From: Propionispira arboris
GTDB lineage: Bacteria > Bacillota > Negativicutes > Selenomonadales > Selenomonadaceae
Length of the DNA: 64,000 nt
NCBI RefSeq assembly: GCF_900109225.1
Contig: NZ_FNZK01000015.1
Span: forward strand, 1-64,000
Direction: 5' to 3'
The stretch's first letter is position 1, and each line of letters opens with the position of its first letter. The translations under genes and the position numbers were made by a program. The notes beneath the pieces were generated by a model that saw only the letters and a list, made by a program, of their open reading frames with translations, was not told the origin of the DNA and made no database searches. Positions 365-57,275 of the stretch are shown here, one piece after another.

Positions 365-1603
365 TTATGCTTTTAAAGCCTTGTCTGCCAAACGTAAAAA
401 TGCACTGGCCGTAATTTCAAGATCGGCATCTGGTGTATCTTCTTGCTTACAATGGGACAGACCTTTTGCTGACATAGCAAACATCATAATGGACGGTACT
501 ATTTTAGCCATTTCAGCTGCATCATGGAGCGGACCAGAATACATCGTGGTATCTTCTCCCGTTTCCTCTTGGACTGCTTCTTTACAAAGTTTAGTCAGCT
601 GTGGATCAAAAATAGTTGGCTCAATATTCCATATTTTTTCCCACGTCACGGTTACATTATGTGTTTTAGCCGCGGCTTGTGCTGCGGTATGTGCTTCGGC
701 AAACATCGCTTTTAATTTTTCAGGGTCTATGGAGCGCTGATCGAGCGAAATCGTACAAGTTTCCGGCACAATTGTAACAACATCTGGCGTTACACTGGCT
801 TTTCCGACGGTGCAGACCCCATCATATTTTAAAGCGATTTCACGAAAACTCAAACTTGCCTGAGCCGCTGCTAAAAAAGCATCCTGACGCATTAAAGTTG
901 GGAAAGAACCAGCATGAGCCGCCTGCCCTTTAAATTTAAGATAATGACGTTCACAACCGGTAATACCATAAACACAAGCAACGGATTTTTTTGTCTGCTC
1001 CAGAACTGGTCCTTGCTCAATATGAAGTTCCAGATAGCCGGTAATATTTTTATCGGCAAATTCCGCATGAACTTCCATAATATGATCAAGATCCACATCA
1101 TAGGCTTTTAACGCATCAACCAAAGGAACACCATCGTTATCCTTGAGGTCAATAATATCTTTTATATCCATCGTTCCTGATACAGCTGAAGAGCCTATTA
1201 GGCTGCGACCAAAGCGTCCACCTTCCTCATCGGCCCAGTTTACAAGATAGAGTGTTTTTTTTGGTTTCACACCCTTTTTACCATACCGATGAATAACTTC
1301 CATTCCAGCAACGACGCCCAAAGCACCATCGAGCCAGCCACCGTTTGGTACGCAATCCAAATGGCTGCCAATCAAGATTGCCGCTTCCGATTCACCTTCA
1401 ATTTTTGCCCAGCTGTTACCAGCTTTATCAATGCTGATTGTTGCCCCTTCAGCGATCATTTTTTCAGCAAACCAATCTCTGGCTTTTTGCCAAGTTGGTG
1501 TCCAGGCAATTCGCTGCGCGCCATTTTCATCGGAAGTCATTGCTGCCAGTTCTCTTAAATTTGCCACTACCCGTTTAGCCCCTGCTTTTAAGTCATATTC
1601 CAT
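365..1603 (-). CDS. pydC: N-carbamoyl-beta-alanine / carbamoyl-amino-acid amidohydrolase (M20 family)
   Basis: This zinc-dependent amidohydrolase of the hydantoinase/carbamoylase family (M20/M28 fold) has 412 residues, normal for the family. Given its neighbours it should hydrolyse N-carbamoyl-beta-alanine to beta-alanine, CO2 and ammonia, the third step of reductive uracil breakdown. Visible metal ligands are H81 in SHLDCVPNGG, D92 in WLDGALG and E127/E128 in DEEGGRFG, followed by ELHIEQGP. The start at 1603 is chosen because AGGAGG lies just upstream; an earlier in-frame codon at 1627 has no such site. It is the last gene of the leftward permease-pydB-preA-pydC unit. Allantoate amidohydrolase is the main alternative, but the pyrimidine neighbours argue against it. 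Confidence 0.88.
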   Translation of the reverse strand: MEYDLKAGAKRVVANLRELAAMTSDENGAQRIAWTPTWQKARDWFAEKMIAEGATISIDKAGNSWAKIEGESEAAILIGSHLDCVPNGGWLDGALGVVAGMEVIHRYGKKGVKPKKTLYLVNWADEEGGRFGRSLIGSSAVSGTMDIKDIIDLKDNDGVPLVDALKAYDVDLDHIMEVHAEFADKNITGYLELHIEQGPVLEQTKKSVACVYGITGCERHYLKFKGQAAHAGSFPTLMRQDAFLAAAQASLSFREIALKYDGVCTVGKASVTPDVVTIVPETCTISLDQRSIDPEKLKAMFAEAHTAAQAAAKTHNVTVTWEKIWNIEPTIFDPQLTKLCKEAVQEETGEDTTMYSGPLHDAAEMAKIVPSIMMFAMSAKGLSHCKQEDTPDADLEITASAFLRLADKALKA

Positions 1604-1648
1604 TTCGTTTCCTCCTAGTTTTACCATTCATTATAAAAATAGCGTTGC

Positions 1649-2905
1649 TTAAACAATATTACGTAAATCTTCCGTAGGTTTATAATAGGAAGTTTTCATA
1701 ACAATAATCTGTTTCGGACAAACTAAACTGCACAAAGAACAACCATCACATTTATCCACATCAATTTGGATTTTATGATTGACTGCCTCAATTGCCCCAT
1801 ACCCCGATTCATTGCAGGCAATCAGACATTTCTGACAAAAAATACATTCTGCCGAGGTCGTCAATTTTGCTTTAGCCGTATACTCACGACTCAAATTGGT
1901 ATGTGATGTCATTTTTTTAGCGGCAATCCCACAGATATTACTTAATTTCTCGATTTTTTTCTCCTGCATATAGACTTTCAACCCTACCAGCATCGGCTTG
2001 ATAATTTGAAAACCTTCCAACATCGCTGCCGTACAAATCTGCACGACACTTGCGCCTACGGCGATATACTCTATGGCATCCTGCCACGTACCAATACCAC
2101 CAATACCATAAACGGGGACATCCACCGCACTTGAAATTTGCGCTACACATTTTAACCCGATTGGTTTTACAGCATAACCGGAATAACCACCATAGGTTGA
2201 TTGCCCCTGTACGGTCGGCATAGGCGACAATGTATCTAAATCAACCCCCATCAGGCACTGCACAGTATTGATGGCCGCAATGGAATCTGCCCCCGCTGCC
2301 GCAACGTTTTTAGCAATGGCCGTAATATCCGTAACATTTGGTGTCAATTTTACAATAACCGGTAGCTCTACCGCTTCTTTAACCCATTTGGTAATCATCG
2401 CGGCAATTTCCGCACTCTGACCAATTGCCGCCCCAACCCCTTGTTCCGGCATACCATGCGGACATGAAAAGTTTAACTCCAACGCATCCGCACCAGCACG
2501 TTCCATTTTATAGGCAAGATTTTTCCACGAGGCTGCCGATAAATCTGCCATAATACTGGCAATCAAAATCTTATTAGGATATTCTTTTTTTATGGCGCGG
2601 ATTTCTTCACTCCAATAGCTACAGTCTTGTTTACTGACCAGTTCAAAATTCTCGAAACCGATGTTATGTCCCTTTTTATCTTTTAGAACACTAAACCGCG
2701 GACTCACATCACTGATTTTCATATCATCTGGTTTGATGGTCTTGATGACAGCTCCGCCCCAGCCCATTTGAAACGCTTTGCGAATAAAGTTCCCGTCGGA
2801 TGTCGGCGGCGCCGAGGCTAAAATAAAAGGATTTTCAAAATGCAGTTTACCAATGTCGACACTTATATCCACATCATCTGTTGATTTTATTTCATTTATA
2901 TTCAT
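1649..2905 (-). CDS. preA: Dihydropyrimidine dehydrogenase, PreA-type subunit
   Basis: This is a flavoprotein reductase that reduces uracil or thymine to the dihydro form, the first step of the reductive pathway. The 418 residues comprise an FMN-binding dihydroorotate-dehydrogenase-like barrel, with the NFSCPHG motif holding the catalytic Cys148, and a C-terminal ferredoxin domain. That domain has two Fe4S4 cysteine sets: C354, C357, C360, C364 and C386, C389, C392, C396. The start is at 2905, behind GGAGAGAG; an upstream in-frame codon at 2935 lacks a ribosome site. In E. coli PreA works with the FAD/NAD(P)H subunit PreT. No preT is present here, so the electron donor is not evident from the window. 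It lies 34 bases downstream of the dihydropyrimidinase gene. Confidence 0.9.
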   Translation of the reverse strand: MNINEIKSTDDVDISVDIGKLHFENPFILASAPPTSDGNFIRKAFQMGWGGAVIKTIKPDDMKISDVSPRFSVLKDKKGHNIGFENFELVSKQDCSYWSEEIRAIKKEYPNKILIASIMADLSAASWKNLAYKMERAGADALELNFSCPHGMPEQGVGAAIGQSAEIAAMITKWVKEAVELPVIVKLTPNVTDITAIAKNVAAAGADSIAAINTVQCLMGVDLDTLSPMPTVQGQSTYGGYSGYAVKPIGLKCVAQISSAVDVPVYGIGGIGTWQDAIEYIAVGASVVQICTAAMLEGFQIIKPMLVGLKVYMQEKKIEKLSNICGIAAKKMTSHTNLSREYTAKAKLTTSAECIFCQKCLIACNESGYGAIEAVNHKIQIDVDKCDGCSLCSLVCPKQIIVMKTSYYKPTEDLRNIV

Positions 2906-2939
2906 AAAAGCTCTCTCCTCAATGCACCCGGACAATTCC

Positions 2940-4331
2940 TTAAAGAATCATTGGTGCTGACCGTTTAATAAATTTACCAGCACCAGCTTTCCCAACAAAG
3001 CTGCCAGCTTCAGCAATAATTTTACCAGCAGCAATCGTCATAATTGGATAGCCTTTTAGCTCAAAACCTTCATAAGGCGTATAATCGACATGTTCATGTA
3101 AAATTGATTTTGTTATGGTTTGCAGTTTTTCTGGATCAAAAATCACCAGATCGGCATCACTATCAACAGCTATCGTGCCTTTTTTGGGATACATACCAAA
3201 TATTTTAGCTGGATTTGTCGCGGTAACCTCTACTAACTTTGTCAGTGTCAATTTCTGATCACGGACACCCCTGCCAAATAAAAGCGGCATACGTGTTTCA
3301 ATGCCCGGTGCTCCGTTCGGAATTTTAGCAAAAAATTCGCGACCCATTTCTTTTTGTCCTTCCATAAAGAACGGACAATGATCGGTTGCCACCGCTTGGA
3401 TGTCGCCTTTAGCAAGCCCCAGCCATAAAGGTTCCTGGCTGTCTTTTTTACGAAGCGGTGGTGACATGACATATTTTGCTCCATTAAAGTCTGCTTCGCG
3501 GTAATTATCCTCATCTAAAAACAAATATTGCGGACAAGTTTCTGCCATAATCGGAAACCCCGCGTCACGAGCTCGTTTAAGCTCTGCCAGCGATTCTTTA
3601 CAACTCAAATGAACAATATAAAGCGGTGCATCTACCAATTCAGCCATCGCAATTGCCCGATTCACAGCTTCAGATTCAGCTAAATTCGGACGACTCAAAG
3701 CATGATAAATCGGTTCGATTTTATTTTCCGCTTTAAATTTTTTCACCAAATAATCAATCACATAATAATTTTCAGCATGAACACAAACCAGACCACCATG
3801 ATCCTTGGTAATCTTTAACGCCTTCATGAGGGTATCATCGGTAACACGATACCCCTCATACGTCATAAATAACTTGAAGGAAGAATACCCCGCTTCAATA
3901 ATAGCTGGAATTTCTGCCATGATTTCATCTTTCATATCCGTAATGGCAATATGAAAGCCATAATCAACGGCCGCTTTCCCGGCCGCTTTTTTTTGCCAAA
4001 TCTCGGTTGTTTCCGCTAAAGTCGCATCTTTCGGCTGAATGGCAAAGTCCACGACAGTCGTGGTGCCGCCGCAAGCCGCCGCAATCGTGCCCGTCGCAAA
4101 ATCATCACTCGAAACGGTCCCGCCAAAAGGCATATCAAGATGTGTATGGACATCTATGCCACCCGGCAAAACATATTTGCCATCTGCATCAACGATTTTT
4201 TTGGCTGAACAAGTAAGATCTTTTCCCATTAAACAAATTTTTCCATTTAAAATAGCTATATCAGCTATATATATATCACTAGCAGTAACAATCGTCCCAC
4301 CCTTTACGATAAGATCAAATTCTTCCATCAT
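2940..4331 (-). CDS. pydB: Dihydropyrimidinase (D-hydantoinase)
   Basis: This cyclic amidohydrolase opens dihydrouracil to N-carbamoyl-beta-alanine, the second step of the pathway. The 463 residues match the usual length. The binuclear metal site is complete: H62 and H64 in DVHTHLD, the carboxylated lysine K153 in FKLFMTYEGY, H185 in VCVHAEN, H241 in YIVHLSC and D317 in ATDHCPF. The start at 4331 has GGGAG six bases upstream; a second ATG follows immediately. It lies in one operon between the NCS1 permease and preA, with short gaps and no terminator. Confidence 0.93.
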   Translation of the reverse strand: MMEEFDLIVKGGTIVTASDIYIADIAILNGKICLMGKDLTCSAKKIVDADGKYVLPGGIDVHTHLDMPFGGTVSSDDFATGTIAAACGGTTTVVDFAIQPKDATLAETTEIWQKKAAGKAAVDYGFHIAITDMKDEIMAEIPAIIEAGYSSFKLFMTYEGYRVTDDTLMKALKITKDHGGLVCVHAENYYVIDYLVKKFKAENKIEPIYHALSRPNLAESEAVNRAIAMAELVDAPLYIVHLSCKESLAELKRARDAGFPIMAETCPQYLFLDEDNYREADFNGAKYVMSPPLRKKDSQEPLWLGLAKGDIQAVATDHCPFFMEGQKEMGREFFAKIPNGAPGIETRMPLLFGRGVRDQKLTLTKLVEVTATNPAKIFGMYPKKGTIAVDSDADLVIFDPEKLQTITKSILHEHVDYTPYEGFELKGYPIMTIAAGKIIAEAGSFVGKAGAGKFIKRSAPMIL

Positions 4332-4342
4332 AACAATCTCCC

Positions 4343-5815
4343 TTATTTTTCAGTTACCGTTTCTTCTACTGCAACAGGTTCCGGCATAACCTTCATAAGT
4401 ACAATATAAGAAACAAACGATGCGCCAAAGCCAACAAACCAGGCATAATCAAACAACCAGGATAAGGATGGAACAACTTTACCAATCAAGGCAGCACCGA
4501 CACCAACAAGTAAAGCTAAAACTGCCATGATGTTCACACCTTTTGTATACGAATATTCGCCTTGTTCCTTATAAAGATCTTCCAGGTTCAATTCCGTTTT
4601 ACGCAAGATAAAGTAATCCGCAATCATAATAGCAGCAATCGGTCCGAGAAATCCAGAATAAACATTGAGCCAGTTGAAAATATACATGCTAGGATCTGAT
4701 AAAAGTTTCCAAGGCATGATTAGCACTGCACATACACCAGTAATCAAGACGCCAGTTTTAAATGAAATATGTTTTGGGGCAATATTGGAAAAATCATTTG
4801 CTGGTGACACAAGATTTGCGGCAATATTAACCGATAATGTAGCCACAATAATACCAAACAACGAAAAAGCTAAAACTAACGGATTCGAAAATTGCAATAA
4901 CAAATCAACGGGGTCCCAAATTGCTTTTCCATAAACAACAATCGTTGCCGAAGATATGACAACACCCATAATGGAAAAAATCGTCATCGTCGGCGGTAAA
5001 CCAATTGCCTGTCCCAGCATTTGCTCTTTTTGCCCCTTGCCAAAGCGAGTAAAATCAGGAATATTCAACGATAAAGTCGCCCAAAACCCAATCATCCCGG
5101 TCAAAGATGGTACAAAAACCGGTAAAAATTTATCCCAGGTATCCAGTTTGCCTGTTTCAGCAAAAATAGGACCAAAACCGTGTGCTTCATTGACAATCCA
5201 AACTAGTAAAATAAAGGTCATAATCAAAACGAGTGGTGCTGCCCAGTTTTCAAACTTACGAATTGAATTCATCCCTTTATAAACAAGTAAAATATTCATA
5301 ACCAAAAAACCAATAAACGTAATCATGGCCGGTAAGCTTAATCCGGCAATATTGATATCCCCGCCGAACGTTTTCCAAGCTGGAAACAAGGCAATAAAAA
5401 AGTTATTAACTGCCGTCCCGCCGATAAAAGCATTAATACCAAACCAGCCGCAGGCAACGCCGGCTCTTAAAATTGCGGGAATATTAGCGCCAAATGTTCC
5501 AAACGATGCTCGAGCCAAAACCGGGAAAGGAATTCCATATTTTGTTCCTGGATGCGCATTTAAGAGCATCGGCACCAGCACGATCAGATTTCCTAATGTA
5601 ATCGTAAGAATAGCCTGCTTCCAATCCATGCCTAAAGCAATTAATCCACTTGAAAGCATATAGGTTGGAATACAATGCGCCATACTAACCCATAAAGCCG
5701 CAAAATTGTATGTGCTCCAATTTCTCTCCTCCAATGTCGTTGGTGCTAAATCTGCGTTATAAAGACTGCTATGTGATACATCTGTTTTTAGTTCAATTAA
5801 TTTTTCCGTAGCCAT
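4343..5815 (-). CDS. NCS1-family nucleobase permease (uracil/allantoin type)
   Basis: This is a 490-residue, strongly hydrophobic transporter of the nucleobase:cation symporter-1 family with about twelve membrane segments. The N-terminal part, with DLAPTTLEERNW followed by membrane segments, is typical of PucI, Mhp1 and FurD-like members. The substrate is inferred from context: it is the first gene of the unit encoding dihydropyrimidinase, PreA and the amidohydrolase, so uracil or a hydropyrimidine is most likely. Hydantoin or allantoin cannot be excluded. Its leader, about 190 bases, contains a promoter, a strong terminator and two ANTAR-type hairpins, so its expression is probably set by antitermination. 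Confidence 0.9.
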   Translation of the reverse strand: MATEKLIELKTDVSHSSLYNADLAPTTLEERNWSTYNFAALWVSMAHCIPTYMLSSGLIALGMDWKQAILTITLGNLIVLVPMLLNAHPGTKYGIPFPVLARASFGTFGANIPAILRAGVACGWFGINAFIGGTAVNNFFIALFPAWKTFGGDINIAGLSLPAMITFIGFLVMNILLVYKGMNSIRKFENWAAPLVLIMTFILLVWIVNEAHGFGPIFAETGKLDTWDKFLPVFVPSLTGMIGFWATLSLNIPDFTRFGKGQKEQMLGQAIGLPPTMTIFSIMGVVISSATIVVYGKAIWDPVDLLLQFSNPLVLAFSLFGIIVATLSVNIAANLVSPANDFSNIAPKHISFKTGVLITGVCAVLIMPWKLLSDPSMYIFNWLNVYSGFLGPIAAIMIADYFILRKTELNLEDLYKEQGEYSYTKGVNIMAVLALLVGVGAALIGKVVPSLSWLFDYAWFVGFGASFVSYIVLMKVMPEPVAVEETVTEK

Positions 5816-5862
5816 AATACCATCTCCTCTGATTTTTCAAATTTACAAATAAAAAATAACCC

Positions 5863-5911
5863 TTCATATCCATATGATAGTAAGCGTCATTGCTTTTGAT
5901 CTCGATATGAA
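5863..5911 (-). promoter_or_regulatory. Second ANTAR-type hairpin in the pyd leader
   Basis: A second copy of the hexaloop hairpin, AAGC-AATGAC-GCTT, lies at 5882-5895 on the minus strand. It sits inside an eight-pair stem formed by 5904-5911 and 5863-5870, which is followed by a T-rich tract. The sequence GCAATGACGCT is identical in both copies. It may be the partner hairpin of a dual element or a second control point. Confidence 0.45.
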
Positions 5912-5930
5912 TTTATCCCTTCAAAAATAC

Positions 5931-5971
5931 AAAAACGCTCAAGGCATATAGCCTTGAGCGTCATTGCTCAA
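5931..5971 (-). promoter_or_regulatory. ANTAR-type hairpin overlapping a leader terminator (pyd operon)
   Basis: On the minus strand, 5971-5954 forms a six-base-pair stem TTGAGC/GCTCAA closing the hexaloop AATGAC, with A at loop position 1 and G at position 4. Those are the two conserved loop bases of hairpins bound by ANTAR antiterminators. The 3' half of this stem is also the 5' part of a perfect ten-pair terminator (5936-5945 with 5951-5960) followed by five T. The two structures exclude each other, as antitermination requires. The protein partner is not in the window. Confidence 0.6.
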
Positions 5972-6010: not shown

Positions 6011-6039
6011 AGTATAGCATTCGCAAAATCGATCGTCTA
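6011..6039 (-). promoter_or_regulatory. Promoter of the permease-pydB-preA-pydC operon
   Basis: On the minus strand the -35 is TAGACG (6034-6039), the spacer is 17 bases and the -10 is TATACT (6011-6016), preceded by ATGC. It matches the ATGCTATACTGAAAA core found at the divergent pucR promoter. Transcription should start near 6004. Confidence 0.6.
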
Positions 6040-6152: not shown

Positions 6153-6172
6153 GAAAAACAAATGAATGAAGT

Positions 6173-6254
6173 AAAGCCAAATTGATCCATTCGCTCGATG
6201 TTTGAGCGGCCAGGATACATTTTTTGTATTCTTTATGGAGATTTGGCTTTTTTT
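6173..6254 (+). ncRNA. Structured leader with three-way junction and terminator, upstream of pucR-like gene
   Basis: A ten-pair closing stem (6173-6182 with 6241-6250) is followed at once by a T-run, so it reads as a terminator. Inside it are CCAT/ATGG (6187-6190 with 6235-6238) and two hairpins: CGCTC/GAGCG (6192-6196 with 6204-6208) and GGATACA/TGTATTC (6213-6219 with 6225-6231). The result is a three-way junction sealed by a terminator stem. It does not match the purine riboswitch or another class I can name. Confidence 0.5.
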
Positions 6255-6304
6255 ATTGTACTTATCGCCCTCCCTGACGAAAGAAAAAATAAGGACGGAT
6301 GCTT

Positions 6305-7580: not shown

Positions 7581-7625
7581 AAAGCAATGGAGCTTTCAAT
7601 TAAAGCCTTTCATTGCTCTTTTTTA
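7581..7625 (+). promoter_or_regulatory. ANTAR-type hairpin within a leader terminator (aminotransferase unit)
   Basis: AAAGC (7581-7585) and GCTTT (7592-7596) enclose the hexaloop AATGGA, with A at position 1 and G at position 4. The same bases form the 5' arm of a terminator (7583-7596 with 7602-7617) followed by CTTTTTT. The structure lies between the promoter at 7518-7546 and the gene, so it is a leader attenuator rather than only the end of pucR. It is the same logic as in the divergent pyd leader. Confidence 0.55.
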
Positions 7626-7658: not shown

Positions 7659-8981
7659 ATGACAGAACAAGAAATCAAAGACCAAGATTTAAAATACAAT
7701 TTACACTCTTGGTCTAAACAGGGTAACTTAAATCCAATTGCCGTGGCAAAAAGTGAGGGCATCTACTTTTTCGATTATGCCGGCAAACGCTACACTGATA
7801 TGTCATCCCAACTCGTTAACCTAAATCTTGGGCACAGCAACAAGGAGATCGTTGCTGCCATCAAAAAGCAGGCCGATCAATTCTGCTTTATGGCGCCAGG
7901 CTATGCTGTAGAATCACGTTCAACTCTCGCTAAAATGGTAATTGATCTAATGCCGGACAACATGGGCAAAGTATTTTTTACCAATGGTGGTGCTGATGCC
8001 AATGAAAACGCCATCAAAATGGCGCGAATGTTTACGGGACGAAACAAAATTTTCAGCCGTTATAGAAGTTATCACGGATCAACCTTTGGCGCCGGCAACT
8101 TAACGGGTGAACCACGCCGCTATCCACTCGAACCAGGAATCCCCGGCTTTATAAAATTCTTTGACCCGTATGTATATCGTGAAGCCATCAATTTTGCCGA
8201 CGAAGAAGCAGCCACTGCTTTTTATATTACGAAACTACGCGAACAGGTTCTCTATGAAGGCGCCGATAATATCGCTGCCATTGTCATGGAAACCATTACA
8301 GGTTCCAATGGTGTAATCATCCCACCCAAAGGCTATCTCAAAGGCGTCCGCAAAATTTGCGATGATTATGGCATCATGATGATCTGCGATGAAGTCATGG
8401 CTGGTTTTGGTCGTACCGGTAAAATGTTTGCCTTCGAACACTTCGATGTGAAACCAGATATCGTCTCGTTTGCCAAAGGAATTACCTGTGGTTATGTGCA
8501 GCTCGGCGGCGTGGCTGTCAGCAAAAAAATTGCTGCCTATTTTGATGACCATACTTTACTTTGCGGTTTGACATATAGTGCCCATCCACTAGCCTGTGCA
8601 GCCGGTGTTGCTGCCCTCAAATATTATAAAGATGCTCATATTTTAGAAAATGTCGAAAAAGTCGGCAAAGTCCTTGGTGAACTGCTCGAAGCTTTCAAAA
8701 TGAAACATCCTTGTATTGGCGATGTCCGTTATATAGGTCTGTTCTCTGCCTTAGAACTTGTGAAAAACAGACAGACCAAAGAGCCCCTGGTCGCTTATGG
8801 GCAAGATCCAGAAGGTATTATGGGTGGTATTATTAAAAAGCTAATCGGGAAAGGTTTCGTAACATATTCACACGAAAATATGATTATGGTTGCACCACCA
8901 CTCATCATCACCGAAAACCAGCTGCAAGAAGCCATGACAATTTTAGATGAAGTATTATACAGCGTCGACAAAACAATCTAA
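7659..8981 (+). CDS. Class III aminotransferase, probable beta-alanine (omega-amino acid) aminotransferase
   Basis: This is a PLP enzyme of the class III (omega-amino acid) family, 440 residues. The PLP lysine is K273 in SFAKGITCGYVQLGG; the cofactor-binding ICDEVMAGFGRTGKMFAFE and the FFTNGGADANENAIK segments are intact. Relatives include taurine-pyruvate and beta-alanine aminotransferases. Placed opposite a complete uracil-to-beta-alanine set and followed by an iron-type dehydrogenase, it most likely converts beta-alanine to malonate semialdehyde, matching the role named PydD in described extended pyrimidine pathways. The amino acceptor (pyruvate or 2-oxoglutarate) cannot be told from sequence. 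Taurine is the main alternative substrate. Confidence 0.85.
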   Translation: MTEQEIKDQDLKYNLHSWSKQGNLNPIAVAKSEGIYFFDYAGKRYTDMSSQLVNLNLGHSNKEIVAAIKKQADQFCFMAPGYAVESRSTLAKMVIDLMPDNMGKVFFTNGGADANENAIKMARMFTGRNKIFSRYRSYHGSTFGAGNLTGEPRRYPLEPGIPGFIKFFDPYVYREAINFADEEAATAFYITKLREQVLYEGADNIAAIVMETITGSNGVIIPPKGYLKGVRKICDDYGIMMICDEVMAGFGRTGKMFAFEHFDVKPDIVSFAKGITCGYVQLGGVAVSKKIAAYFDDHTLLCGLTYSAHPLACAAGVAALKYYKDAHILENVEKVGKVLGELLEAFKMKHPCIGDVRYIGLFSALELVKNRQTKEPLVAYGQDPEGIMGGIIKKLIGKGFVTYSHENMIMVAPPLIITENQLQEAMTILDEVLYSVDKTI

Positions 8982-9033: not shown

Positions 9034-10137
9034 ATGTTTCGTTTTGCTCTACCGACAAAAATAATTTTCGGCAAAAAATGTGTAAAAGAACATGCTGCTG
9101 AACTGCTTACGCTCGGCAAAAAAGCTTTTATTGTCACCGGAAAATATTCAGCAAAATTAAATGGTTCGTTACTGGATGTTCAGGAAGCTCTTGAGTCAAT
9201 CGGTATTTCGTATATTCTCTTCGATCAAATCACCAGTAATCCGACGATTGATCAAGTACGCACGGCAGCGCAAATTGCCCGCGAGAAAAAAGTTGATTTC
9301 ATCATTGGCATTGGGGGCGGTTCGCCGCTTGATGCAGCCAAAGCTATCGCCGTGCTTGCCACCAATGAACTCGATGACCAGCAATTATTCACAGGGCCCT
9401 ATGCCCAACCATTTTTGCCAGTTGCAGCCGTTCCGACGACTGCGGGAACCGGTAGTGAAGTGACTCAATATTCTATTCTCAGCAATGCGAATCTGGAAAC
9501 AAAAACCTCGATAGCTCATAGCGGTATTTTCCCAAAGCTAGCGTTTCTCGATGCTCGCTATACGACAAAACTACCAAAACGCGTGACCATTCATACTGCC
9601 GTTGATGCTTTATCCCATTCTCTGGAAGGCTATTTATCCGTCAAAGCAAATACCTTTAGCAATATTTTTGCCGAAAAAAGCTTACATCTTCTAGGTGAAT
9701 GCCTGCCTTATATAAGTAAAGACCCCACACTTCAGATTCGTGAAAAACTGCTTTATGCTTCCATGCTCGGCGGGATCGTCATTGCGCATACTGGCACAAC
9801 CGCCGTTCATTCGATGGGATATTCCTTAACGTATTTTAAAGGAATTGACCATGGTCGTGCCAATGGATTGCTACTCGCTGAATATTTGCGATACCTTGAT
9901 GTATCATATCACGAGAAGATACAATCAATCCTTCAGATACTACAAATGAAGACAATTGATGAATTTGCGGCAAAAATGCATCATCTTTTAGGTGAAACCG
10001 ATACCATCACCGCTGCAGAAGTTAAACTTTTTAGTGAAAAAGCAGCGGGTGCCGCAAATATTTCCAATACCTTGCTGCCGCCAACCGAGCAGGATTTGGC
10101 GGCAATGTTCCAGAAAAGTTTAAAATTTGTCTCGTAA
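9034..10137 (+). CDS. Iron-type alcohol dehydrogenase, probable malonate semialdehyde reductase
   Basis: This 367-residue group III (iron-containing) alcohol dehydrogenase has an NAD(P)-binding GGGSPLDAAKA segment and a VPTTAGTGSEVTQYS motif. Metal ligands are visible at D191, H195, H259 and H273. AGGAGG lies upstream of the ATG. It directly follows the aminotransferase, so the expected job is reduction of malonate semialdehyde to 3-hydroxypropionate, the PydE role in extended reductive pyrimidine pathways. This disposes of a toxic aldehyde and of reducing equivalents in an anaerobe. Substrate specificity is inferred only from the neighbourhood. Confidence 0.85.
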   Translation: MFRFALPTKIIFGKKCVKEHAAELLTLGKKAFIVTGKYSAKLNGSLLDVQEALESIGISYILFDQITSNPTIDQVRTAAQIAREKKVDFIIGIGGGSPLDAAKAIAVLATNELDDQQLFTGPYAQPFLPVAAVPTTAGTGSEVTQYSILSNANLETKTSIAHSGIFPKLAFLDARYTTKLPKRVTIHTAVDALSHSLEGYLSVKANTFSNIFAEKSLHLLGECLPYISKDPTLQIREKLLYASMLGGIVIAHTGTTAVHSMGYSLTYFKGIDHGRANGLLLAEYLRYLDVSYHEKIQSILQILQMKTIDEFAAKMHHLLGETDTITAAEVKLFSEKAAGAANISNTLLPPTEQDLAAMFQKSLKFVS

Positions 10138-57159: not shown

Positions 57160-57262
57160 ATATCAAAAAGAGCCCACTTGTCTTGGGTCTTTTTTGCCCA
57201 GACGGTCGGCTCTTTTTTGCTATACTTCATGTGGTCATTTCCACTTCCGTCAGTCGTATAAC
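57160..57262 (-). promoter_or_regulatory. ZTP (pfl) riboswitch with terminator
   Basis: On the minus strand 57262-57191 reads ACGACTGACGGAAGTGG, then ACCACATGAAG, then GCCGACCGTCTGGGC, the conserved 5' and 3' parts of the pfl motif that senses ZTP/ZMP. The expression platform pairs GAGCC (57210) with GGCTC (57170), followed by a T-run. ZMP is AICAR, the substrate of the downstream enzyme. Assignment is by recognised motif. Confidence 0.82.
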
Positions 57263-57275
57263 AACTTCTAGTATG

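Follow-up and report, generated by a model that had tools for sequence, protein, structure and literature searches.

Does a leader in Propionispira arboris, upstream of a putative pyrimidine-breakdown operon, belong to an ANTAR antitermination system, and can such a system act through a single hexaloop hairpin per terminator? Structural work has narrowed the minimal ANTAR target to a single hexaloop while maintaining that antitermination needs both hairpins (PMC8934654). The crystal structure has one dimer on one hexaloop, whereas Enterococcus faecalis genetics demand two (PMC8934654, PMC3369931). We analysed a stretch of 64,000 nucleotides of the P. arboris genome (hereafter ‘the window’, contig NZ_FNZK01000015.1) together with related genomes. 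We consider it probable that the leader represents a one-hexaloop variant of ANTAR antitermination, as part of a regulon for nitrogen supply that a PdtaS/PdtaR-like pair controls, although the binding, the antitermination, the signal and the acting protein are all inferred.

Hexaloop modules in the window

The operon lies on the minus strand and contains genes for an NCS1 nucleobase permease (4343..5815, the first gene of the controlled operon; TIGR00800 above cut-off, with Transp_cyt_pur), a dihydropyrimidinase/hydantoinase (2940..4331; TIGR02033 above cut-off), a PreA-like dihydropyrimidine dehydrogenase (1649..2935; NF006183 above cut-off) and a hydantoinase/carbamoylase family amidase (365..1627; TIGR01879 above cut-off; beta-ureidopropionase role inferred). 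A PucR-family regulator gene on the plus strand is divergent from the operon, and is followed by genes on the same strand for a class III aminotransferase (7659..8981; beta-alanine role inferred) and, 3′ of it, an iron-containing alcohol dehydrogenase (9034-10137). Taken together, the operon and the plus-strand genes suggest an inferred reductive route that degrades pyrimidines to beta-alanine and beyond. The likely promoter of the operon (TAGACG-17-TATACT with an extended −10 element, 6011..6039, minus strand) is identified by consensus match only.

An initial annotation of this leader had described two minus-strand copies of GCAATGACGCT, each folding into a stem with an AATGAC hexaloop, the first of which overlaps a perfect ten-pair terminator. 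The positions of both copies were confirmed, and both loops carry A at position 1 and G at position 4 (‘A1/G4’) above a closing C-G pair. The first copy forms hairpin P2a (TTGAGC[AATGAC]GCTCAA, 5954..5971, minus strand), with six pairs and a predicted stability of −7.3 kcal/mol. Its overlap with a terminator was borne out by the sequence and fold of positions 5960-5936: terminator T1 (5929..5967, minus strand; −25.4 to −26.4 kcal/mol) has a core, CGCTCAAGGC-TATAT-GCCTTGAGCG, that makes ten perfect pairs across those positions and is followed by TTTTTG. The P2a/T1 module as a whole folds at −26.4 kcal/mol (z −7.7), with none of 200 shuffled sequences equally stable. Because the hairpin and the far more stable terminator are mutually exclusive folds, the terminator is expected to win unless the hairpin is held.

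The second copy forms P2b (AAGC[AATGAC]GCTT, 5882..5895, minus strand), a four-pair hairpin located 58 nt from P2a and identical in the sister species (G001) and in a genome from another family (G155). The annotation, while correct about overlap at the first copy, had missed that P2b also overlaps a terminator-like structure, T2 (5851..5891, minus strand; −9.5 kcal/mol), whose stem at 5891-5855 is followed by a TTTT run (TTTTATTTG) and which is kept in the same two genomes. A further module, on the plus strand at 7581-7617, had also escaped it. That module comprises the hairpin P2c (AAAGC[AATGGA]GCTTT, 7581..7596, plus strand; kept in G001, locus L066) and an overlapping terminator, T3 (7583..7624, plus strand; −12.3 kcal/mol), with a stem at 7583-7617 followed by CTTTTTT; its core begins 75 bases upstream of the aminotransferase gene. 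All three window modules combine an A1/G4 hexaloop, a C-G closing pair and overlap with the 5′ arm of a terminator.

By our own comparison, each window copy agrees at 12 of 13 positions with the published ANTAR 13-mer AGCAANGRRGCUY (PMC3369931), and the shared loop features are those selected by NasR in SELEX experiments (terminal C:G pair, A1 and G4; PMC7496416). Across the genome, GCAANGRNGCTY is commoner than chance would give, with 31 matches as opposed to 12 for its reversed form; with a following T-run the counts are 11 and 0 (on the reverse strand, T-run variants of a single site are among those counted). A search of the leader found no Rfam family at gathering score, with weak sub-threshold matches only.

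Orthologous leaders were located through the permease, which had a match in 11 of 300 genomes (P. arboris included). In the sister species the leader region is 92% identical and both GC-closed hairpins are kept, with copy 1 retaining its GAGC/GCTC core and losing its outer two pairs. G155, with a permease 87% identical, keeps both modules; in the first, the hairpin retains its GAGC/GCTC core, the loop is now AACGGG and the terminator stem has changed. At 78% identity (G078) we found ggc[AATGGC]gct plus a strong hairpin, which was not called as a module because no T-run follows the hairpin immediately. More distant leaders carry gagc[AACGGA]gctc with a terminator (G273, 43%) and, by eye, a GAAGGG loop without A1, also with a terminator (G244, 45%); in six genomes at 30-33% permease identity the leader scan called no module.

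ANTAR proteins and distribution of the module

The genome encodes two ANTAR response regulators over the Pfam cut-off, on contigs C30 and C19, which satisfies one of the checks set out with the annotation. The C30 protein contains a receiver domain with its phospho-Asp and an ANTAR domain, and its gene adjoins that of a PdtaS-like kinase with a PdtaS GAF domain. Its closest PDB match is the antiterminator 1S8N (Rv1626), followed by EutV, so that protein and neighbouring kinase together resemble the PdtaS-PdtaR pair of Mycobacterium. All four residues through which EutV contacts RNA (Arg142, Lys149, Glu160 and Tyr164; PMC8934654) are retained in the C30 protein. Among the best 30 loci of the class, 28 could be aligned over the domain; all 28 keep the first three contacts, whereas the fourth position holds Tyr 22 times and Phe 6 times.

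The C19 protein, encoded beside ethanolamine ammonia-lyase genes, has Gln, Arg, Ala and His (QRAH) in place of RKEY, and was rejected as the likely reader for the loss of these four contact residues. A scan of the 18-kb C19 ethanolamine stretch for hexaloop-terminator modules called none. One observation tells against the proposed circuit: in the PdtaS-like kinase gene on contig C30 (L012, 8080-8340) the ATPase part is interrupted by an in-frame stop, leaving an open frame of 414 in P. arboris as opposed to 477-526 in five relatives. Either this strain may have a modified circuit, or a sequencing error may account for the base.

For comparisons across genomes, 61 terminator-overlapping sites were reduced to 57 by removing four that appeared coding-like (L117, L128, L148 and L150, the last of which resembles a true leader) and to 48 by removing nine that were redundant. 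The list is a sample drawn from the matches listed and not the full set. Elsewhere in the P. arboris genome, terminator-overlapping sites precede genes for P-II, LamB/YcsF (5-oxoprolinase A) and an SsnA-like amidohydrolase (a name that we presume for this Amidohydro_1 gene, the family assignment being from Pfam), and further sites lie before genes for a carbamoylase-like M20 protein, an ABC permease and an amino-acid-binding protein. The same sites were called in the sister species, except that before the ABC permease gene, as were the three window modules. In other families the module precedes nifH, amtB, carbamoyl-phosphate synthase (carA) and carbon-nitrogen hydrolase genes, as well as M20 peptidase, amino-acid permease and Liv-type binding-protein genes.

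By our reading of the gene names, nitrogen-related genes lie downstream of 37 of the 48 sites, a count that includes M20 and peptide/amino-acid uptake genes and for which not every protein was scanned; about 11 sites precede genes without a clear nitrogen role (e.g. MerR, EamA, Na/sulfate symporter and CBS). The targets include pyrimidine and 5-oxoproline breakdown and probably purine breakdown, in which they differ from those of EutV. The recurrence of the module before P-II, 5-oxoprolinase, nifH, amtB and peptide/amino-acid scavenging genes suggests a nitrogen-supply regulon. The nifH-type leaders L143, L158 and L137, found in relatives, all carry modules, arranged as a tandem pair in L143 and L158 (Pfam was run on L143 only).

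A class-wide sample of 300 genomes comprised 240 with an ANTAR domain and 60 in which none was detected. The pattern with a T-run occurred in 126 of the former and 14 of the latter (Fisher P 4e-5, uncorrected for relatedness). Genomes with the domain held 563 pattern matches, against 46 for the reversed control; those without it showed no excess (24 against 28). Reverse-strand counts in this sample include T-run variants.

These observations bear on the possibility that the hexaloop is read by some other RNA-binding protein or by a ligand, with no ANTAR protein involved. Binding has not been shown, and a convincing-looking module (L122) is present in G206, where no ANTAR domain was detected, so this possibility survives; we nevertheless regard it as very unlikely, given the match to the ANTAR consensus, the confinement of the excess over control to genomes with the domain, the nitrogen-related genes downstream and the retention of the contact residues. 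Domain and pattern match occur together in only 126 of the 300 genomes.

The upstream hairpin

In E. faecalis the hexaloop that overlaps the terminator (P2) is preceded by a second, P1, across linkers of 5-12 nt. P1 is reported to be required there: its deletion ablated induction, and a change of linker drastically reduced induction (PMC3369931); a 20-nt linker extension abolishes EutV action (PMC3369931, PMC8934654). NasR binds a single hairpin at ~12 uM as compared with 1 uM for two (PMC7496416).

We compared the region upstream of P2 with that in positive controls, taken as EutV-type (ethanolamine) loci by name: 23 of 80 loci gave 37 sites, or 32 without near-copies. P1 was detected in both leaders of the Veillonella magna controls, which belong to the Negativicutes. 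Under a relaxed rule (A or G at position 1, C-G closing, at least 4 pairs, tolerance of one mismatch or bulge and a gap of up to 40 nt), P1 was found at none of the 48 sites (1.6 expected from shuffles), in contrast to 29 of the 32 controls. The annotation had found no clear P1 for the first copy, and this absence turns out to be general. Requiring C-G closure, at least 3 pairs and a gap to 15 nt gave 1 of 48 sites against 23 of 32 controls (P 8e-12). The loosest rule, which accepted 3 pairs, any type of closing pair and a gap of up to 20 nt, gave candidates at 7 of 57 sites, within the range of shuffles (mean 4.1, at most 9), and at 28 of 37 control sites (shuffles 2.6). The 40 nt upstream also fold less stably at the sites than in the controls (mean z −0.30 vs −1.38). 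Hairpins of any kind with 3-8 nt loops, sought upstream of P2 at the 48 sites, were near shuffled expectation at each loop size; the largest excesses were 17 vs 13.3 for loops of 6 and 15 vs 11.9 for loops of 8.

Predicted −10 boxes, which like all promoters called here are consensus matches only, end a median of 32 nt upstream of P2 (47 of 48 sites called), and in 12 of the 48 leaders only 11-24 nt lie between the end of a near-consensus promoter and P2, which would leave little or no transcript for a P1. On the sequence evidence, these sites have no P1 above chance.

Two sites upstream of a sigma-54 activator-like gene (L155 and L170) have, by eye, a hairpin with a six-nucleotide loop just before P2. 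With loops of ATTAAC and GCAAAC, neither has G4 and neither was accepted as P1; it may be a degenerate one.

A canonical dual-hexaloop system could still be at work if the first of two tandem hexaloops served as P1 for the second, or if a weak P1 were hidden. Two modules do occur in series in the window, in the nifH leaders and in one transporter leader, and one of the seven candidates under the loosest rule is a weak A1/G4 hairpin (TTTG[AAGGGA]TAAA) 16 nt upstream of the second module of the window. Against this, two modules are present at just 5 of 43 non-redundant loci, the window hairpins are 58 nt apart as compared with the 5-12 nt linkers of the eut leaders, in which a 20-nt extension abolishes EutV action, and upstream hexaloops are not above shuffles. 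We give this explanation little credence, and return to one hexaloop per terminator as the preferred reading.

Stem covariation, loop positions and a proposed mechanism

Pairs 1-3 of the hexaloop stem are fixed by the search pattern in nearly all of the 48 non-redundant sites, and covariation could be assessed beyond them. Pair 4 is A-T in 29 sites and G-C in 9, giving 38 Watson-Crick pairs against 25.8 expected (none of 5000 shuffles as good), with the caveat that the search pattern allowed only C or T as the last base. At pair 5, 25 sites are Watson-Crick against 13.7 expected (P 0.0002). Covariation at pairs 6 and 7 was not significant in this set (P 0.08 and 0.39). None of these shuffles corrects for relatedness. 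Related leaders therefore show the covarying stems that the ANTAR reading needs and, with ANTAR genes present in the genome, the annotation’s view of the leader gains support; the sensed signal remains an inference, and there are no binding or expression data.

Loop identity was examined among the matches listed for seven genomes (an incomplete list in the case of G072), counting overlapping terminators of −9 kcal/mol or better. Such overlap was found for 35 of 43 A1/G4 matches, as opposed to 0 of 11 matches carrying another base at position 1 and 1 of 36 for which position 4 differed. In 30 module-rich genomes, selected for high counts, the changed-loop patterns also exceeded their own reversed controls (position 1, 89 vs 24; position 4, 148 vs 39), indicating that the reversed control is low and not perfectly neutral; the A1/G4 pattern gave 313 matches vs 3 reversed, in 29 of those genomes. 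Several strings in other genomes with G at position 1 resemble true modules by eye. Position 1 may tolerate G, and position 4 looks strict.

That these are plain terminators or attenuators carrying a hexaloop by chance, with no regulation by hairpin exchange, could be argued from the weakness of P2b, which alone folds at only −3.0 kcal/mol and is equalled in stability by 12 of 200 shuffles. The idea is hardly tenable in view of the A1/G4 preference among terminator-overlapping matches, the covariation of pairs 4 and 5 and the conservation of modules across families. A DNA operator or chance repeat was rejected, since the hairpins covary and the modules overlap terminators. The modules, their conservation and covariation, the A1/G4 preference (for terminator-overlapping matches) and the link to ANTAR genes are thus established as features of the sequence.

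The mechanism that we propose for one-hexaloop antitermination is as follows. By default the intrinsic terminator would form and transcription would stop ahead of the operon, the 3′ arm of the hexaloop hairpin doubling as part of the predicted 5′ arm of the terminator. An active ANTAR regulator, most likely the PdtaR-like C30 protein encoded beside the PdtaS-like kinase gene, would bind the hexaloop by contacting A1, G4 and its C-G closing pair, hold the short hairpin and block the terminator, so that the operon is transcribed. In the window, two gates in series would control uracil uptake and breakdown, and a single gate beta-alanine processing, with the divergent PucR gene alongside.

Such a system would share with EutV of the E. 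faecalis eut genes (PMC3369931, PMC8934654) the A1/G4 hexaloop, a P2 overlapping an intrinsic terminator, an ANTAR response regulator with a partner kinase, a nitrogen theme and several modules per regulon, and would differ in having no P1 at 5-12 nt upstream. Actinobacterial ANTAR RNAs differ in having dual stem-loops, few of which overlap terminators (PMC8164766). NasR/nasF and AmiR/amiE are alike in the A1/G4 loop rule, in terminator overlap and, for NasR, in the C:G closing pair; unlike the sites here, their leaders have two hairpins. To our knowledge, neither NasR nor AmiR relies on a two-component response regulator as its sensor.

We see in these leaders what look like naturally occurring exceptions to the two-hexaloop requirement. 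It is likely, in our view, that ANTAR antiterminators with one hexaloop per terminator control the nitrogen scavenging and fixation genes of the whole class. That class is inferred to be Negativicutes; the best GroEL matches among plasmid-collection records are from Bacillota. If our view is right, P1 would be a dispensable recruitment aid, and the leaders would represent in nature the minimal single-hexaloop target that the EutV structural work proposed and did not find for antitermination. They also offer a natural setting in which to test how termination is prevented by an ANTAR dimer. In the open-licence literature we found no report of ANTAR control of pyrimidine breakdown or of ANTAR targets in Negativicutes, and none of single-hexaloop antiterminators beyond PMC8934654. 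The published target searches known to us require two hairpins (PMC3369931, PMC8164766) and would miss the single-hexaloop form by design; we infer that the published dual-hairpin covariance model, which has the same requirement, would also miss these sites. The proposal provides a likely control circuit for pyrimidine-breakdown, nifH, amtB, P-II and 5-oxoprolinase genes in many anaerobes, and predicts one two-component system behind all of them.

Two further RNA structures were observed in the window. The leader of the PucR gene (6165-6262, plus strand) is predicted to form a three-way junction that is closed by a long stem, with a U-run behind it (−34.9 kcal/mol, z −6.05). This structure is conserved in G001 and G155 and matched no Rfam family; a model built on it found 6 of 300 genomes at E 0.01, with strong matches only in P. 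arboris and G155 (G001 being outside the sample), and it is possibly an attenuator or riboswitch. The second is a match to the ZMP-ZTP riboswitch at 57189-57267 on the minus strand (58.5 bits).
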